Virus record (IMG/VR): IMGVR_UViG_3300027985_000942
Coordinates: 1 to 41,603 of that record
Source of the DNA: a virus
Direction: 5' to 3' (one strand)
Length of the DNA stretch: 41,603 nucleotides
Both the position numbers and the translations under genes were made by a program. Below the pieces are notes generated by a model. The model was not told the DNA's origin, made no database searches, and was given only the letters and a program-made list of their open reading frames with translations. Below are positions 8,665-41,603 of the stretch, piece by piece. Each line of letters starts with the position of its first letter. Position 1 is the stretch's first letter.

Positions 8665-8968
8665 TGCTTATCTCCCCAAAAAGCTCTTTAATTTCTTCCC
8701 ATGATTTACCTGCCACTTTTTCTATAATATTTAATTGTTCGTGATATGTAATGCTAAAACTATTACCAAGATTTTTACACTTTAATTCCGCAATAACTAA
8801 AAAATCAATCAAAGCTTCTAACATTTCATTACGTTGTTTTTCTGTTTCCCTTAAACGTGGATATAATTTATCATCTATATCATCTATATAGTCATTTATA
8901 CATCCATAATTATGACTATTGTAATACGGTGCTTTCGTTATCCCTAATTTTTCTATAATGTTATCCAT
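8657..8968 (-). CDS. Phage protein, paralog of the 6784-7194 gene (103 aa)
   Basis: 103 residues that begin M-D-N-I-I-E-K-L-G-I-T-K-A-P and end with K-S-W-E-E-I-K-E-L-F, matching both ends of the 136-residue protein at 6784. The middle contains R-N-E-M-L-E-A-L, the counterpart of A-P-E-M-L-K-V-L in the other copy. It overlaps the antirepressor gene by 16 bases. Confidence 0.65.
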   Translation of the reverse strand: MDNIIEKLGITKAPYYNSHNYGCINDYIDDIDDKLYPRLRETEKQRNEMLEALIDFLVIAELKCKNLGNSFSITYHEQLNIIEKVAGKSWEEIKELFGEISNG

Positions 8969-9684
8969 TTTATAATCTCTCCTGTAATAAATTCCCTTCC
9001 CTTTTCTGTCCAGACAGTTTCGTGCTTAGTTTCCTTTTCTTTTTTGCTGTTAAAATATGGAACTGTTCTAACCCCAGTATAACCCAAGCCTTTATACTTA
9101 CTGTAAAGAAAATATTGACCTGACTGTTTGTACTGGATTTTTTGCTCGCAAAGTATTTTGTTTAACTTTTGAGCTGTTAACCCTAATCCACTTGCAATTT
9201 GAGTTACAGTAAAACAAGATTTAGAGTCTAGGACATTGTCGCAGTATTCAACCTTTGGAGCTTGTAATTTTAATTGAGCTTCCTTTTGCTCTATAACTAA
9301 TTGCTGTTCGTAAGCTAATTTTAGAGCTTCGGCAAATGAGTTTGGAAGTGCTGGTTTTAATTGTCTTTCAAGATATTCTAGCCGGTCAATTATTTTTGCT
9401 CGTAATTCTACTGAATAACCACTAACCAAAATTAATGTTTCTCTTTTAGGAAGTTTGTAGCACCTGTATTTCTGTTTGTTTTGTTCATTTATATAGGTAT
9501 CCTCAAAATTGGGGATACCTTCTAGTTTAGATAGCATTAACTTAATGTCTCTTAAAATATGGTCGTGCCTTTTTCCTGTTAGCTCTGCTATCTCTCGGCT
9601 GTCAATTCTAACCTCGAAATTATCTTCTAGGTTAGTTCCTTTTTGTAAATACCCGTACTTGAATAAATCAAATTCATTTTGCAT
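8953..9684 (-). CDS. Phage antirepressor, Rha domain plus KilAC/ANT C-terminal domain
   Basis: 243 residues from ATG 9684; a GTG at 9699 is possible because GGAG lies within it. Residues about 25-110 match the Rha/pRha pattern (I-D-S-R-E-I-A-E-L-T-G-K-R-H-D-H-I-L-R-D-I, then Y-x-L-P-K-R-E-T-L-I-L-V-S-G-Y). The C-terminal 110 residues match the KilAC domain (T-V-T-Q-I-A-S-G-L-G-L-T-A, W-T-E-K-G-R-E-F-I). Such proteins counter repressors or host regulators. It is the first gene downstream of the structured element at 9700-9809. A second Rha protein lies at 29799. Confidence 0.85.
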   Translation of the reverse strand: MQNEFDLFKYGYLQKGTNLEDNFEVRIDSREIAELTGKRHDHILRDIKLMLSKLEGIPNFEDTYINEQNKQKYRCYKLPKRETLILVSGYSVELRAKIIDRLEYLERQLKPALPNSFAEALKLAYEQQLVIEQKEAQLKLQAPKVEYCDNVLDSKSCFTVTQIASGLGLTAQKLNKILCEQKIQYKQSGQYFLYSKYKGLGYTGVRTVPYFNSKKEKETKHETVWTEKGREFITGEIIKWITL

Positions 9685-9699
9685 AAAAAAAATCTCCAC

Positions 9700-9809
9700 T
9701 TCTTCCTAGTAGCACCCCTGGGCAAACCACTAAAGGAAAATTTGCTGGGCTAGGAAGAAATCGAGATTCTTCGGAACCCTTTAGTTTTGTAACTCTCTGC
9801 TATAAGAGT
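9700..9809. ncRNA. Candidate structured RNA element with pseudoknot
   Basis: Base pairing visible by eye: a 10-bp outer stem TTCTTCCTAG (9700-9709) with CTAGGAAGAA (9750-9759); inner CCC (9715-9717) with GGG (9747-9749); GCAAA (9722-9726) with TTTGC (9741-9745). The apical loop ACTAAAGG (9729-9736) is perfectly complementary to CCTTTAGT (9778-9785), an 8-bp pseudoknot. A C(TTCG)G loop (9769-9774) and the hairpin ACTCT/AGAGT (9792-9809) follow. The region is richer in G+C than its surroundings. On the minus strand it would be the 5' leader of the antirepressor; the UUCG loop would favour the plus strand. Confidence 0.5.
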
Positions 9810-9834
9810 AAGCCAACGGCCTATAAAAATATTA

Positions 9835-10314
9835 CTACTTAATAAGGTATATGTCAATAAGAATAGGAATAGCAAAACCGATTACAAAACTAACAGGAAT
9901 GGTTATTTTTAATGCTAGAATGTAATTATCAATCTTCTTCTGCATACTTTTCAAAGATACCTCTAATTTCGTTATAGACTGGGATTGACTCTTCATAGTT
10001 TTTTGTGAGTCTATCAACTCTAATTCTAAGTCTGAGGTTAATATCTTCCTGTCCTCTAATTGCCTCTCTAAGCTCCATGTTAGCGCCTCTGAGCTCTGCA
10101 ATAGTTTCTCCATCTTTTTTATCTGACTCGTTGAGCTCTCCAATAATTTCGATAGATTTATCGATTCTTCTTGTGAGCTCTTCGTTTTCACCTCTAAGTT
10201 TAGAAACAAGGTCTGGAGTCTTTGCCAGTCTGATTTCTTGATAGATATGGTATCCGATGGAAATAACCAACAAGGAAGAAAGAACAATAATAGCAACAGT
10301 TTTTTTATCCACAT
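9835..10314 (-). CDS. Signal-peptide, coiled-coil, C-terminal TM protein; spanin-like, overlaps another gene
   Basis: 159 residues from ATG 10314 behind GGGGGA. It has an N-terminal signal-like stretch (basic M-W-I-K-K then L-L-L-L-L-F-F-L), a long Ser/Lys/Leu/Glu coiled coil (about 25-125) and a C-terminal membrane segment (I-P-V-S-F-V-I-G-F-A-I-P-I-L-I). No proper lipobox surrounds its cysteine. The whole 9929-10312 gene lies inside it in another frame. Its final 30 codons, where no other gene overlaps, still encode a clean membrane helix, which supports real coding. Location after the holin-like and peptidase genes points to the last lysis step (inference). Confidence 0.6.
   Translation of the reverse strand: MWIKKLLLLLFFLPCWLFPSDTISIKKSDWQRLQTLFLNLEVKTKSSQEESINLSKLLESSTSQIKKMEKLLQSSEALTWSLERQLEDRKILTSDLELELIDSQKTMKSQSQSITKLEVSLKSMQKKIDNYILALKITIPVSFVIGFAIPILIDIYLIK
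9929..10312 (-). CDS. Rz-like inner-membrane spanin candidate, nested in an alternative frame
   Basis: 127 residues from GTG 10312, two bases downstream of the ATG of the overlapping gene and using the same GGGGGA site. The N-terminal membrane anchor (T-V-A-I-I-V-L-S-S-L-L-V-I-S-I-G-Y) is followed by a charged heptad coiled coil (E-N-E-E-L-T-R-R-I, E-L-R-E-A-I), the classical shape of an i-spanin. Position directly after the holin-like gene also fits. A 127-codon open frame with a correctly placed anchor is unlikely by chance in such AT-rich DNA, but one of the two frames could still be incidental. Confidence 0.6.
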   Translation of the reverse strand: MDKKTVAIIVLSSLLVISIGYHIYQEIRLAKTPDLVSKLRGENEELTRRIDKSIEIIGELNESDKKDGETIAELRGANMELREAIRGQEDINLRLRIRVDRLTKNYEESIPVYNEIRGIFEKYAEED

Positions 10315-10511: not shown

Positions 10512-10936
10512 TTAAACGTTACCTTAACAAGTCGCCTTGGTTTATCAATAACCTTGAATTTATCATCCCAAACGTCATAAATATAGTATTTCTCACATTC
10601 TTTTTTAATTAGGTTTGTGAAGTGTCCTACTCCAAAATTAAGGAAGTTTACAATATAGAATGAGTTTGAATCATACTCTATTTGTCCTTTATAGTTGTGG
10701 TCTATTTCTGCTCCAAGCAACCTAGAAGCTACTGCCCAAATTATTAAATTATTCTCTGTATAGCCTTTTGAGTTTGTCAACTCTTTATTTAATTCATCTG
10801 GTGTTATTTTGATGGATGGGTGTCTTAGATAAGCTGAATTACATAAAGATGTTAGTAAACATCCTACTTCGCCTATAGTCATTTCTGAATTATTAAGTGG
10901 AATATTTTTCCATTTTGGATCGTTCTGATAATACAT
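10508..10936 (-). CDS. Peptidase C39-like protein, candidate endolysin
   Basis: 142 residues with the C39-like papain fold pattern: Y-Y-Q-N-D-P-K-W at 2-9, G-E-V-G-C-L-L-T-S with Cys26 as nucleophile, G-H-F-T-N-L with His105, and Y-D-V-W-D-D with Asp121. This fits a Cys-His-Asp triad. Related domains occur in cell-wall and phage lysis enzymes. It has no signal peptide, so a holin would be needed for export; a holin-like gene follows directly with an ATGA overlap. No other muralytic domain is visible in the window, which makes it the best endolysin candidate. Confidence 0.7.
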   Translation of the reverse strand: MYYQNDPKWKNIPLNNSEMTIGEVGCLLTSLCNSAYLRHPSIKITPDELNKELTNSKGYTENNLIIWAVASRLLGAEIDHNYKGQIEYDSNSFYIVNFLNFGVGHFTNLIKKECEKYYIYDVWDDKFKVIDKPRRLVKVTFK

Positions 10937-11340
10937 TATTTCCCCCTACTATTATCCATTTCTTTTATGGCTTTAATTAGCTCTTTGGTTACTTCGTTTT
11001 GATGTTCTTGACTCTTAGCATACTGTGATTGTAAAAGAACAATAGAGGTTTGTATACCTTCAAGTTTGGCTTCAACAGATTTAAATTGCATATTGTTTGT
11101 GTGTAAGTCAAATCTTAGCTCTTGTATGGATCCATTATATTGATTCATTTGATGTTTAATTTCGTCATGGGTTTCTTTATGTTCTTTTTTTTCTTCCTCA
11201 AGATTTTTAATTGCGTTTTTAGTTTTGGAATGTTCGGTTGCCATTTTCCAAATAACACCACCCAAGGCTAAAACATAGCCGATATTCAATATTATTTGAG
11301 TAGATTCTGTTAATATTATTTGGCTAGATTCATTAAACAT
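10936..11340 (-). CDS. Membrane-anchored coiled-coil protein, XhlA-like
   Basis: 134 residues. A single hydrophobic segment (about 15-32, I-I-L-N-I-G-Y-V-L-A-L-G-G-V-I) precedes a long charged coiled coil (E-E-E-K-K-E-H-K-E-T-H, then V-E-A-K-L-E-G-I-Q). This resembles XhlA-type haemolysin/holin-partner proteins except that the anchor is N-terminal. TAATG overlap with the peptidase gene. It is part of the lysis module by position. Confidence 0.55.
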   Translation of the reverse strand: MFNESSQIILTESTQIILNIGYVLALGGVIWKMATEHSKTKNAIKNLEEEKKEHKETHDEIKHQMNQYNGSIQELRFDLHTNNMQFKSVEAKLEGIQTSIVLLQSQYAKSQEHQNEVTKELIKAIKEMDNSRGK

Positions 11341-12836: not shown

Positions 12837-12926
12837 GTCCGTATGGACTGATATATTATTAAATCAATAAGCCTTAAATTGATTTTACAAAAATTTAGTC
12901 GTTCCCCATGGCCTCATGGGGTTTTT
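12837..12926 (+). terminator. Hairpin leader ending in an intrinsic terminator upstream of recT
   Basis: Between promoter and gene lie three stems: GTCC-GTAT-GGAC (12837-12848), AAATCAAT/ATTGATTT (12861-12885), and CCCCATG-GCCT-CATGGGG followed by TTTTT (12904-12926). The last is a textbook Rho-independent terminator on the plus strand placed before the recT ribosome site. It either attenuates recT or ends a small RNA of roughly 95 nt. Confidence 0.7.
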
Positions 12927-12942
12927 AATTGTGGAGGTGATT

Positions 12943-13623
12943 ATGGTTTTATGTTGTGGTCAAGAGGCAACAATCCAAGAAGATAGCTATGAAGGAAATA
13001 ACGGCTGGGGTGTTTTCTGTCAAATTTGCGGTCATGCAATTTTTGATATAGATAAAAATAAAGCTATTGCAAATTTTCAAAGAGGGAGTAAAAAAGTGCA
13101 AAATAAAATAGTACCTGTAAGAAATAACTCAATGCGTCAAGTATTTGAGTCTAAAAGGAATGAAATTGAGGCTATCGCAAGCCCTATATTGTCCAACGAT
13201 AAATCCGCCATGGAAAGGCTTTTAACTATCAACACTGAAAGATATCCCCTAACACTAAAGGGCGGTGCATGGGATAATATATGGTCAACAGATGTTGGTC
13301 AATTGTCTATAGTAACTGCTATTGAGGAAGCCCTAATTATGGGCATAGAGCTTGGAAAAATGGGCGATATTGTTCCGTTTGGTGATACGTGTCAGCTTAT
13401 ACCTTCCGTTGAGGCTTTTGAGTTTACTCTTACCAATGGGAATAATGCCCCATTTGAGAACATTACAATCGAGTGTATTTATGATGGCGATGATTACAGG
13501 TCTGGTCGTAAAGATGGGAATTTCTTCCTGGATTTTGAATCATTTGGAAAAGAAAGAAAAAAAGTTATTAACTGTCTATGGAACCTTAAAGAAAACCGGA
13601 CTTGTTATCGGGGAAATGTATGA
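12943..13623 (+). CDS. recT: RecT-like ssDNA annealing protein, N-terminal part (frameshifted)
   Basis: ATG 12943 follows GGAGG at 5 bases. An N-terminal cysteine cluster (C-C, then C-Q-I-C near residues 5-35) looks like a zinc knuckle and is unusual for RecT. From about residue 120 the frame matches RecT (A-L-I-M-G-I-E-L-G, F-G-D-T-C-Q-L-I-P-S, Y-D-G-D-D-Y). After A7 at 13557-13563 this frame loses similarity and stops at 13623, while the continuation lies in the +1 frame (next entry). Partner of the YqaJ exonuclease at 1862. One base too many in the A-run explains the break. Confidence 0.7.
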   Translation: MVLCCGQEATIQEDSYEGNNGWGVFCQICGHAIFDIDKNKAIANFQRGSKKVQNKIVPVRNNSMRQVFESKRNEIEAIASPILSNDKSAMERLLTINTERYPLTLKGGAWDNIWSTDVGQLSIVTAIEEALIMGIELGKMGDIVPFGDTCQLIPSVEAFEFTLTNGNNAPFENITIECIYDGDDYRSGRKDGNFFLDFESFGKERKKVINCLWNLKENRTCYRGNV

Positions 13624-14152
13624 CGCTGAAAGGTTGCTTGAAAAAGCAGAAATTCATTCTTTGCCATATAAAAAGTATATGACTTACATGAGGGCTTATG
13701 AATACCAAAAAAGTGAGGGTAATGTTAAAAAAGATCCAAACGGCAGGGAATATTTTACATATTTTGAAGTCGCTAAAACTGACGATAAATATTTTGAGAA
13801 ATCAGTTGAATATTTTAAGCAAGCTGAAGCCAGTGGTCAACTAAAAACTGATTCTAAAGGTGAATACGCTGTTCAGACTTTACCTAAAAAAGCAGGTGGA
13901 ACTTTTGACAAAAAAATATACCGATACGAAATTGAGGGCGGAATGGCTGAAAAGGTTATATTTGTAGATGAATTAGTAAATCCTTATTCAGGAGCTGACC
14001 AACCTGAAATGCTAAGAAAATCTGCTGGAAAATCTTTTCTTGCAAAATATGCTAAGGTTAGAAATAGTGAGGCTGTTTTGCATGAAGTTAAAACGTCTAA
14101 AGGTGCTATGAAACAAGCCGTTGACCTTGCAGATAGACAGTTTATAGATTAG
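13562..14152 (+). CDS. recT: RecT-like protein, C-terminal part in the shifted frame
   Basis: From the A7 run the +1 frame reads on smoothly: L-L-T-V-Y-G-T-L-K-K-T-G-L-V, M-Y-D-A-E-R-L-L-E-K-A, and finally M-L-R-K-S-A-G-K-S-F-L, matching the C-terminal helix of RecT proteins. Joined to the first part it gives about 400 residues, longer than the usual 270-330 because of the N-terminal zinc-like region and an insert. If expressed separately the only ATG near the break is 13616, with a poor ribosome site, so the pieces belong to one gene (sequencing indel, mutation, or recoding). Confidence 0.65.
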   Translation, partial: KLLTVYGTLKKTGLVIGEMYDAERLLEKAEIHSLPYKKYMTYMRAYEYQKSEGNVKKDPNGREYFTYFEVAKTDDKYFEKSVEYFKQAEASGQLKTDSKGEYAVQTLPKKAGGTFDKKIYRYEIEGGMAEKVIFVDELVNPYSGADQPEMLRKSAGKSFLAKYAKVRNSEAVLHEVKTSKGAMKQAVDLADRQFID

Positions 14153-14155
14153 AAT

Positions 14156-14178
14156 TAAAATGCCCCACGTATGGGGCA
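14156..14178 (-). terminator. Intrinsic terminator for minus-strand (tail) transcripts
   Basis: The minus strand carries TGCCCCA-TACG-TGGGGCA (14178-14161) followed by TTTTAATT. It lies between recT and the lipoprotein gene, so minus-strand transcripts leaving the tail-fibre gene would cross the lipoprotein gene antisense before stopping here. The stem could also act on the plus strand, but no U-run follows there. Confidence 0.55.
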
Positions 14179-14203
14179 AATCGAAAGATAGGAGTGTTTG
14201 ATT

Positions 14204-15076
14204 ATGAAAAACAAACTAAGTATAGTATATATTTTAATTGTGTTATTATCAAGTTGCGAGCAACCTGTAGAGTATAGAGAAACAATAAAAGAGGTTGAAG
14301 TAATAAAAGAGGTGCCTGTTGAGGTTATAGTTGAAAAGGAAGTACCTGTTACTACTGAAACTATCAAAGAAGTACCTGTAACTGTTGAGGTCGAAACAGT
14401 CAAGGAAATAGAGGTTATTAAAGAAGTTCCTATGCCTGTAACTGTTATCAAGGAAGTGCCTGTTCCTGTAACAGTTGAAGTTGAAACAATAAAAGAGGTT
14501 GAAAAAATAGTATATGTTGATAAAATTATTGATAATGTTATACTGATAAGAGAAATAGTTGAAAAGGAGGTTTCGATGGAAACTGCAAGCGATGTAAAAG
14601 AGGTTATTATTCCAAGCCCTATTTTGGAATACACAAATTATGTTAGTTTAGGGGCTGGTTTAGGATTCAGGGCTTTTGGGGTTAATGCTGATGGTTTAAT
14701 TGAGTTGGATGGGATTAGAAAACTGTCTAAAGTTGAAGGTGTTTTGTATTTTGAGTACAAAGGGAATAGCTTTAAGCAGGTTGGTCAAGATGTAACTCAA
14801 ATAGAGGAACTACCTGTTATCGATTCTCCTAGAATTGAATTCGAAAAGGATAATTTCAAGGTAACTATCGGGGAGTACAAAGGAGATACTTTTTCTTACG
14901 TGTTTAATAGGACTCTTCAAGTTGCATTTAAAAATGTTACAGGTGCTTGTATGCGAGGAAACGATTTATTAGTATCAGTAGGTGAAACTATTGCGACTAG
15001 GTATAAAGGGGTCTATATATGGACAGTAAACGATACCGCTCCCCGATTGATTTTTGAGGAAGGTATCATTTTTTAG
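14204..15076 (+). CDS. Lipoprotein with K-E-V-P-V repeats
   Basis: 290 residues from ATG 14204 (GGAG about 9 bases upstream). A short basic N-terminus and hydrophobic core end in a lipobox L-S-S-C at Cys18, so it should be lipid-anchored at the cell envelope. Residues about 25-110 are repeats of (I/V)-K-E-V-P-V and V-E-V-E-T, giving an extended acidic stalk. The last 150 residues look beta-rich (F-E-Y-K-G-N-S-F, D-L-L-V-S-V-G-E-T). A perfect AAGGAGG plus in-frame ATG at 14576 could also make a soluble C-terminal form. Plus strand and monocistronic-looking: superinfection exclusion or host-surface change is inferred. Confidence 0.75.
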   Translation: MKNKLSIVYILIVLLSSCEQPVEYRETIKEVEVIKEVPVEVIVEKEVPVTTETIKEVPVTVEVETVKEIEVIKEVPMPVTVIKEVPVPVTVEVETIKEVEKIVYVDKIIDNVILIREIVEKEVSMETASDVKEVIIPSPILEYTNYVSLGAGLGFRAFGVNADGLIELDGIRKLSKVEGVLYFEYKGNSFKQVGQDVTQIEELPVIDSPRIEFEKDNFKVTIGEYKGDTFSYVFNRTLQVAFKNVTGACMRGNDLLVSVGETIATRYKGVYIWTVNDTAPRLIFEEGIIF

Positions 15077-29798: not shown

Positions 29799-30482
29799 TC
29801 AGTTAATGATAATGCTGTCAATGAATTGTTTAACTTGGCCATATAGTTCTTTTTCATCAATAAAAGAACTATTAAACTCAATAATGTCTGCAATTTTTGT
29901 TTCTAGCTTTTGTATATGCTCTAATTGTTCTTTAGTGAAATAATTCCTATTGTTTTCACCTTTTGGAATATTATTTAATTCTTTCCATTTTTTAAGATTC
30001 ATTCCTAAAACTTTTTTGTAGACTAATCCTGTATAGTTAGAATAAGCAAACTTTTTAAAGTTTCCTCTATCTGGTACATTATCTGTTATTGCTTTTGTTA
30101 GATCATTTCTGATAGAAACTCCAATGTGTCTAGTTTCACCCCTAACTAACAATTCATGTTCCATAAACTCAAATTGTTTAATGAATTCTGTTTTAAACTT
30201 TAATGCTTTAGCTCCGGTAAAACCCATTACTAACAATGTAAAAAATGATTTATTCATTTCATACATTCTATAGGTTCTTCCATTGTTTAAATAAGAAGAC
30301 TCCATCAACTTAAACATAGATGAATCAATCTCCTCATTTTTGTGGAGATCATTTTTTAGGTTATCTATAGCCCTTAAAACTAAATCATGCCTTTTATTAA
30401 ACTTATCTGCCACTAACAAGCTATCTGTAATAGCTGTTGCTTTTGTAATGTCGTTTGTTGTTAATCGAACTAATTGGTTCAT
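29799..30482 (-). CDS. Rha-family antirepressor / regulatory protein
   Basis: 227 residues. Residues about 20-110 match the Rha pattern (V-A-D-K-F-N-K-R-H-D-L-V-L-R-A-I, S-S-Y-L-N-N-G-R-T-Y-R-M-Y-E-M-N-K, F-F-T-L-L-V-M-G-F-T-G), and a distinct helical C-terminal domain follows (K-V-L-G-M-N-L-K-K-W). It lacks the KilAC tail of the other Rha protein at 8953. AAGGTGG precedes the ATG. Own promoter and terminator, set between terminase and head genes: a moron-type cassette. Confidence 0.85.
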   Translation of the reverse strand: MNQLVRLTTNDITKATAITDSLLVADKFNKRHDLVLRAIDNLKNDLHKNEEIDSSMFKLMESSYLNNGRTYRMYEMNKSFFTLLVMGFTGAKALKFKTEFIKQFEFMEHELLVRGETRHIGVSIRNDLTKAITDNVPDRGNFKKFAYSNYTGLVYKKVLGMNLKKWKELNNIPKGENNRNYFTKEQLEHIQKLETKIADIIEFNSSFIDEKELYGQVKQFIDSIIIN

Positions 30483-37135: not shown

Positions 37136-37161
37136 AACTTCCTCCGTTTATATTCTTATTC

Positions 37162-37191
37162 ATATTACAATTCTTTTTCATTTATTGTCAA
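37162..37191 (-). promoter_or_regulatory. Promoter of the replication operon
   Basis: Minus-strand TTGACA (37191-37186), 18-bp spacer, TAATAT (37167-37162). It stands immediately after the terminator at 37198-37225 and before the small HTH gene. Confidence 0.7.
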
Positions 37192-37197
37192 GGTAAA

Positions 37198-37225
37198 ATA
37201 AAAAAAAAGAGCCGTTTCCAGCTCT
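37198..37225 (-). terminator. Intrinsic terminator with GAAA tetraloop
   Basis: Minus strand AGAGCTG-GAAA-CGGCTCT (37225-37208; one G-U pair) followed by nine or more U residues. Ends the operon 38359-37226 before the replication promoter. One of the clearest terminators in the window. Confidence 0.85.
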
Positions 37226-37375
37226 CTAGTTTTTCAATCTCTCATAATCATCGTTGAGCCATATTTCCAAGGCTTTAAGTTCTGGAGTTACCCCATACTT
37301 AATTATTAGATATCCTACAATATCCAGCATTTTATTGTTTAATGCTAACAACCTGTTTTGGATGTCTTTAGTCAT
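37226..37375 (-). CDS. Small helical protein (49 aa)
   Basis: A 49-residue frame from ATG 37375 to TAG 37226, ATGA overlap with the upstream gene and immediately followed by the terminator. Helical (Q-N-R-L-L-A-L-N-N-K-M-L-D-I-V-G-Y) with W-L-N-D-D-Y-E-R near the end. No family recognised. Confidence 0.6.
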   Translation of the reverse strand: MTKDIQNRLLALNNKMLDIVGYLIIKYGVTPELKALEIWLNDDYERLKN

Positions 37376-41236: not shown

Positions 41237-41603
41237 AAATCCCCACATATCTAACAAACCAACCAGCGCACATCCTTTCTTGTGAGGCTGATGTTCTAAC
41301 AGTTGAATCAGCAACCTGTAAGATTTTAGTAGCTTCTGGTATTGTTAGTTCATATTTTTCATCCCCTTTGCTAATTTCGACCATAGCAAACCCATTCACA
41401 ACCTTTCTTTGTAAGTGCTTTAATTTTTCGTATCTCTCTAAAGCTTCTTCCTTGCTATGCCCTACTGCATAACGCCTATTCAATAAAGCAGTACCGTTAA
41501 TCATGTGATTGTGAAGCCTTGAACCTGATAATGTATCAATAACGTTCCTTTGACCTTCTATCCAATCAGTACCATCGAAACAATAATAATACCCCCCTCT
41601 TGT
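41229..41603 (-). CDS. Three-module HTH-like protein, C-terminal part (continues at base 429-1)
   Basis: Same gene as 1-429, with 41460-41603 duplicating the overlap. The part unique to this end (41229-41459) encodes the last 76 residues, including the third module (I-P-E-A-T-K-I-L-Q-V-A-D-S-T-V-R-T-S-A) and a basic linker (Y-E-K-L-K-H-L-Q-R-K). TAG at 41231-41229. If annotated on the linear contig, a truncated 91-residue frame from an internal ATG at 41504 would be a mistake. Confidence 0.7.
   Translation of the reverse strand, partial: TRGGYYYCFDGTDWIEGQRNVIDTLSGSRLHNHMINGTALLNRRYAVGHSKEEALERYEKLKHLQRKVVNGFAMVEISKGDEKYELTIPEATKILQVADSTVRTSASQERMCAGWFVRYVGIYE
41460..41603. repeat. Terminal direct repeat, copy 2 (contig overlap)
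   Basis: Identical to bases 1-144; see that entry. Removing one copy closes the circle in frame. Confidence 0.9.

Follow-up and report, generated by a model that had tools for sequence, protein, structure and literature searches.

Results

The antirepressor locus

The window, i.e. the whole stretch of DNA analysed here, is a complete virus record (IMG/VR IMGVR_UViG_3300027985_000942) of 41,603 bases with 33% GC and genes that run nearly all leftward. A direct terminal repeat of 144 nt (1-144 and 41460-41603) identifies the record as a circular map or a terminally redundant genome. The terminase is at most 31% identical to that of any known phage, and there is thus no close relative with which the window could be aligned. 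The element studied here occupies the gap between gene 9835-10314 and the antirepressor gene 8953-9684 (Table 1); the product of the latter is matched by the profiles phrog_63 (E 1e-55), PF03374 (2e-27) and PF09669 (1e-18). A sequence-only reading had described a structured RNA at 9700-9809 flanked by a spanin and an antirepressor gene. The antirepressor is there, but the family search gave no match for the gene directly upstream, and the weak Rz-like spanin match is 10936-11340. Elsewhere in the genome, a second Rha-type regulator gene (29799-30482; phrog_2657, E 7e-44) adjoins the terminase and has its own TTGACA promoter without a comparable leader structure, a plus-strand block (12916-15076) with 0 PHROG matches interrupts the otherwise leftward gene order, and another transcription boundary is seen at 37136-37371, where a TTGACA promoter comes after a conventional terminator (GAGAGCTGGAAACGGCTCTTTTTTTTT).

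Table 1. Positions of the antirepressor gene and of the leader features in the window
Feature	Position	Strand	Remarks
Sigma-70-like promoter TTGACA-17-TAATAT	9829..9857	-	10/12 matches; predicted start ~9823
Hairpin H1 (ACUCUU-AUAGCA-GAGAGU)	9792..9809	-	predicted fold
b1 (ACUAAAGGG)	9777..9785	-	single-stranded stretch; upstream partner of the inner-hairpin loop
Antiterminator-like hairpin GGGUU..GAAGAA / UUCUUC..AGCCC	9747..9779	-	mutually exclusive with the long stem
Long stem (P1), 5' arm	9750..9772	-	also 5' arm of the terminator
Inner hairpin P3, GCAAAU(UUUCCUUUAGUG)GUUUGC	9722..9745	-	predicted fold; loop holds b''
b'' (CCUUUAGU)	9736-9729	-	in the inner-hairpin loop
a'' (UGCUA)	9710..9714	-	immediately before the 3' arm of the long stem
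Long stem, 3' arm	9687..9709	-	contains the Shine-Dalgarno sequence GGAG (9697-9694)
U8 tract	9685..9692	-	abuts the antirepressor start codon; terminator tail
Antirepressor gene	8953..9684	-	243 aa, ATG at 9684; Rha (Phage_pRha) N-domain and KilAC (ANT) C-domain

The RNA belongs to the minus strand, which the sequence-only reading had missed: the predicted fold is better on this strand (-42.5 vs -34.2 kcal/mol on the plus strand), three G-U pairs of the long stem are possible on the minus strand only, and the promoter, the U8 tract and the orientation of the gene fit. On this strand, the order is promoter, H1, b1, the long stem around an interior of 40 nt, U8 and AUG. The promoter is supported by the distribution of the ten exact TTGACA-type promoters of the phage, most of which are located in or beside a gap between genes and point towards the gene that follows. 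We set leader-peptide attenuation aside, the frame in H1-b1 being an 11-codon one that starts with TTG and is without a convincing Shine-Dalgarno sequence. A perfect 12-nt complementary pair (TTACAAAACTAA / TTAGTTTTGTAA) links 9781-9792 with 9882-9893. RNA that reads through from the lysis genes would hold b1 in this longer helix, and late read-through RNA and promoter-born RNA may thus fold differently; as an operator, the pair was discarded, its copy number in the window being not above chance.

Long stem and competing folds

The outer stem had been described as having 10 bp. It is actually a stem of about 22 bp: of its 23 positions, 22 are paired (19 Watson-Crick and 3 G-U pairs on the minus strand), and an inverted-repeat search returned arms of 22 nt with 86% complementarity. 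Its role as a putative terminator and as a mask of the Shine-Dalgarno sequence had also gone unnoticed. The minus transcript of 140 nt folds at -47.4, compared with -34.7 +/- 3.8 in dinucleotide shuffles (z -3.3; 3 of 1000 shuffles as good), while the part before the 3' arm alone has no unusual fold (z -1.1); the significance of the fold comes mostly from the long stem. The inner hairpin, CTTCGG on the plus strand and the further hairpin, H1, are present as had been described.

Prefix folding suggests that another structure forms first. The antiterminator-like hairpin (-11.7 kcal/mol alone) is dominant at transcript lengths of 80-115 nt, and the long stem dominates only once its 3' arm is nearly complete (~130 nt). 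The pairing gain of this hairpin is moderately unusual (p 0.018; p 0.29 for the bare duplex). At about 95-100 nt, a nested helix (ACUAAA:UUUAGU) surrounds the GGGUU..AGCCC hairpin. Thus, the complementary 8-mers that had been described as a pseudoknot form one in one fold and an ordinary nested helix in the other, an alternative that had been overlooked; this helix encloses the 5' arm of the long stem and thereby competes with terminator formation.

Complementarity within the leader

The perfect 8-bp pair is indeed there (ACTAAAGG / CCTTTAGT, 9729-9736 and 9778-9785). With one G-U pair included, b1 and b'' form nine pairs (ACUAAAGGG:UCCUUUAGU; shuffle p 0.0175). A second candidate, a1 (UAGCA, 9802-9798), lies in the loop of H1 and can pair with a'' (UAGCA:UGCUA), but this pair is weak, with 5 bp and a shuffle p of 0.15 alone; jointly, with leader and interior shuffled, a and b reach p 0.0025. 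As some perfect 8-nt inverted repeat occurs in 18.5% of shuffles, a statistical claim from the 8-mer alone is ruled out and the pseudoknot needs other support: alone it is weak evidence, and it becomes meaningful only through its position and through parallel pairs in other phages. Within 300 nt downstream, no second a/b target was found, only A-rich matches of 6-7 nt at most.

Searches for homologues

None of 4227 Rfam families matches the element, and for riboswitches, ribozymes, tmRNA and tRNA neither Rfam nor ARAGORN gave a match in the window; the earlier reading had not matched it to a riboswitch, ribozyme or tmRNA class either. Permissive searches with the C4, c4-a1b1 and isrK covariance models returned no match in the window or in the class members described below (for C4 in the window, up to E 10); in a control with phage P1, Rfam detects C4 (68.8 bits) and c4-a1b1. 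Direct homologues were found neither by blastn in phages nor by searching IMG/VR with 17- and 18-mers, where four 17-mer matches lack the element. The Campylobacter Rha homologues (L001-L034) do not have this leader, none of the 30 antirepressor loci in 298 genomes of the Campylobacter phylum has a long stem with T-run and ATG in this layout, and further Vibrio, Proteus, Escherichia and Arsenophonus antirepressor loci showed no class I leader by eye.

Structural relatives in other phages

We therefore sought relatives by fetching antirepressor (KilAC) loci and screening their leaders for structure. Locus L214, whose antirepressor is 37% identical to the window protein, has a stem of some 20 bp that leads into U7-AUG. 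Two further loci, L220 and L222, came from relatives of the L214 antirepressor and have related leaders, and L169 came from the first locus set. All four encode KilAC antirepressors with N-domains that are Rha, AntA or unrecognised. Their sequences differ from the window, but order and spacing are the same: the starts of a1 and b1 are 17-26 nt apart and b1 starts 10-14 nt before the stem (17 and 13 nt in the window). Moreover, sigma-70-like promoters can be placed upstream of all four, and a1 sits in a hairpin loop also in L214, L222 and L169. At L169, a stop comes two codons after the U7-AUG, and the start of the antirepressor lies another 9 nt downstream; the abutting AUG is thus not always that of the antirepressor itself.

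In all five phages, b1 can pair with the stem interior, and the upstream segment a1 can pair with the bases that immediately precede the 3' arm; this second pair is weak in the window. The b and a pairs are GAGAGGUAAA:UUUACCUUUC and GUGACAG:CUGUCAC in L214, GAGUGGUAAC:GUUACCGCUC and GUGACAA:UUGUCGC in L220, GAAAGGUAG:UUGCCUUUC and GUCAGAA:UUCUGAC in L222, and AGCUAAAA:UUUUAGCU and GUGGUGG:UCACCAC in L169. Across the five members 0 pairs are broken and many are altered on both sides. The check that had been proposed earlier, paired changes in related phages, thus favours the earlier reading, but only in structural relatives, as no close kin of the window turned up in the collections. Only L214, L220 and L222 are clearly homologous to each other (74% mean column identity), and their paired changes represent true covariation, whereas all other comparisons are between remote structural analogues; with so few divergent members, MAFFT misaligns the stems.

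Scanned on both strands, the full set of loci (4.2 Mb) yielded 247 distinct long stems, six of which run into a T-run and ATG. Complementarity of both a and b is present in five of these six and in 2.1% of 240 others, by a rule formed post hoc. The joint shuffle p is 0.00025 to 0.002 for L220, L222 and L169, and for L214 0 of 4000 shuffles were as good. Since we had inspected these loci before we defined the class and its spacing rules, the scan and shuffle numbers are supportive rather than definitive. The sixth stem (L122, 9865-9982) lies before a gene for an HNH endonuclease and shows a match for b but not for a (leader-interior pair CAGTAAC:GTTACTG); it is possibly the same device on another gene.

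Discussion

Relation to known RNA systems

The closest anatomical parallel is provided by C4 (RF01695) and c4-a1b1 (RF03163) of phages P1 and P7, a likeness of the complementary pair to a C4-type target:antisense pair that the earlier reading had missed. C4 pairs through its a' and b' loops, occludes the ribosome-binding site and sets the specificity of P1 and P7; its action on ant is a precedent for self-encoded antisense control (PMC5320573, PMC12197685). In P1, a 17-bp stem closes C4, b lies in the loop of the last hairpin (P3), and the last base of a is immediately followed by the 3' arm; the targets a1 and b1 precede the stem, and a2/b2 are located at the ribosome-binding site downstream of it. 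The window has the long closing stem, b'' in the loop of the GCAAAU/GUUUGC hairpin and the antirepressor downstream. A candidate a'' has the same position at the 3' arm (as in L214, L220, L222 and L169), and there are putative upstream a1/b1 targets, with a b1 pair of 8-9 bp and a weak a1 pair. There are also clear differences: C4 has a P2 hairpin whereas the interior in the window folds into one inner hairpin only, the RNase P GG motif at the base of the C4 stem is replaced by CCGAAG at the 5' base without GG, and the downstream a2/b2 is lacking. Instead, the stem in the window is itself terminator-like and masks the antirepressor Shine-Dalgarno sequence, unlike in C4, and the class has b1 starting 10-14 nt before the stem compared to 74 nt in P1.

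Further precedents for such control are termination by CI/seqA and the case of IsrK on an antirepressor (PMC4825925, PMC10111431). In phage P4, CI pairs with seqA and seqC and thereby causes termination (PMC4825925), and the Rfam profiles of C4 and isrK detect relatives of CI and seqA (PMC10111431); the same profiles do not match the window. Both CI and the window RNA lie in the leader that they control or may control, have an upstream target and act, or in the window are predicted to act, by premature termination (PMC4825925, PMC10111431), but CI controls a replication operon and has a downstream target, seqC. IsrK of prophage Gifsy-1 has its own promoter and terminator, and its read-through RNA, with two alternative structures and a masked ribosome-binding site, encodes the antirepressor AnrP (PMC4825925). 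The putative signals in the window are alike; in IsrK, however, the masked site is that of orf45 and not the antirepressor start, and the short form of IsrK is an activator of translation. Finally, the sar RNA of phage P22 also represses an antirepressor by pairing with its target (PMC12197685), but as a separate antisense transcript, whereas the window RNA is part of the leader's own stem. A stem abutting the antirepressor AUG is in none of the descriptions of C4, P4 CI and IsrK (PMC5320573, PMC12197685, PMC4825925, PMC10111431). The element is thus C4/CI-like in its anatomy and probably in its function, and lies outside Rfam C4 and isrK by their own models.

A probable self-targeting attenuator and its rivals

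We think that the element is probably an autoregulatory, far-diverged antisense attenuator of the C4/CI type, an immunity RNA module in the antirepressor leader, rather than an isolated pseudoknotted RNA. Its parts, their order and complementarity, their recurrence and the paired changes can be read directly from the DNA; from them we infer the transcripts, their termination, the action in trans and the sign of this action. Transcription from 9857-9829 would produce H1 with a1, followed by b1 and the C4-like hairpin. Closure of the long stem would make the polymerase stop at U8, and copies that read through would have a buried Shine-Dalgarno sequence, so that no antirepressor is made. The terminated product of about 138 nt would show b'' in a loop and a'' single-stranded. 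If, on the other hand, the nascent RNA first forms a1:a'' and b1:b'', or the overlapping GGGUU..AGCCC hairpin, that helix would sequester the 5' arm, the stem would close too late and the antirepressor would be expressed. A pre-existing short RNA, e.g. in a lysogen, could pair in trans with a1 and b1 of new leaders and favour termination, resulting in self-specific silencing as with P1 C4 and P4 CI. The earlier suggestion of either an antirepressor leader or an independent small RNA was essentially right: with the promoter, the terminator before the AUG and the Shine-Dalgarno sequence in the stem, the element is probably both. It is tempting to go further and to propose a distinct RNA class, with antisense RNA, target and Shine-Dalgarno-masking terminator combined in a single self-targeting element at the start codon that recurs in unrelated phages and freely changes the recognition sequences that set immunity groups; this wider proposal we regard as somewhat doubtful.

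The main rival is a purely cis-acting attenuator or translational switch, riboswitch- or IsrK-like, whose two exclusive folds answer some signal without any role in trans. The exclusive folds of the prefix folding and the Shine-Dalgarno sequence in the stem agree with it, as does a constrained ON fold that has H1, GGGUU..AGCCC and the inner hairpin together at a junction. We nevertheless consider it unlikely: there is no Rfam riboswitch match, and the a and b sequences vary freely with their complementarity kept, which fits recognition by base pairing better than a conserved ligand pocket. An ordinary strong terminator or insulator that separates the antirepressor operon from the late lysis genes, and whose internal complementarities arose by chance, would suit the location at a late/early boundary, the large share of the long stem and U8 in the folding energy and the frequency of perfect 8-nt repeats in shuffles. 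Yet the stem is separated from the lysis gene by a promoter, a structured interior of 40 nt is unusual for a terminator, and the joint a and b pairing in the window and in five of the six T-run-ATG stems makes this reading improbable. That the RNA is an independent small RNA which ends at U8 and targets other mRNAs of the phage or the host, while the antirepressor is expressed by other means, is very improbable indeed: it would have its own promoter and terminator, its loop CCUUUAGU is complementary to SD-like AAAGG sequences and ACTAAAGG occurs seven times in the window compared to 2.1 expected, but the Shine-Dalgarno sequence of the antirepressor is part of the stem, the strongest pairing partner lies within this leader, and the downstream gene is an antirepressor in all five phages.

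Implications for phage immunity

Antirepressors influence both the awakening of a resident prophage and the ability of an incoming related phage to break immunity. Among RNA immunity systems, C4 and CI are the classic ones, and their relatives are found with Rfam profiles. The leaders described here appear to keep the a/b recognition logic while escaping these profiles, and RNA immunity at antirepressor genes may thus be more common than annotated. The element is compact, and compensatory swaps of b1 and b'' are predicted to change the immunity specificity with the protein unchanged.

Other leaders of antirepressor genes

At L250 (Vibrio phage 1.100.O), the stem AAAGCCUCC/GGAGGCUUU abuts the antirepressor ATG before the CDS at 801 and buries GGAGG, a short version of Shine-Dalgarno masking in a cultured phage. 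A second leader type precedes KilAC antirepressors at L217 and L221 (both 1345-1482), L223 and L225. Here, a leader hairpin and the terminator have 7-nt loops that are exact complements of each other (GAAUCAG:CUGAUUC); at L221, with nearly identical flanks, this pair is replaced by GAUCAAG:CUUGAUC, and L219 and L232 have similar loop pairs. This second type looks like a kissing-loop attenuator with swapped specificity.
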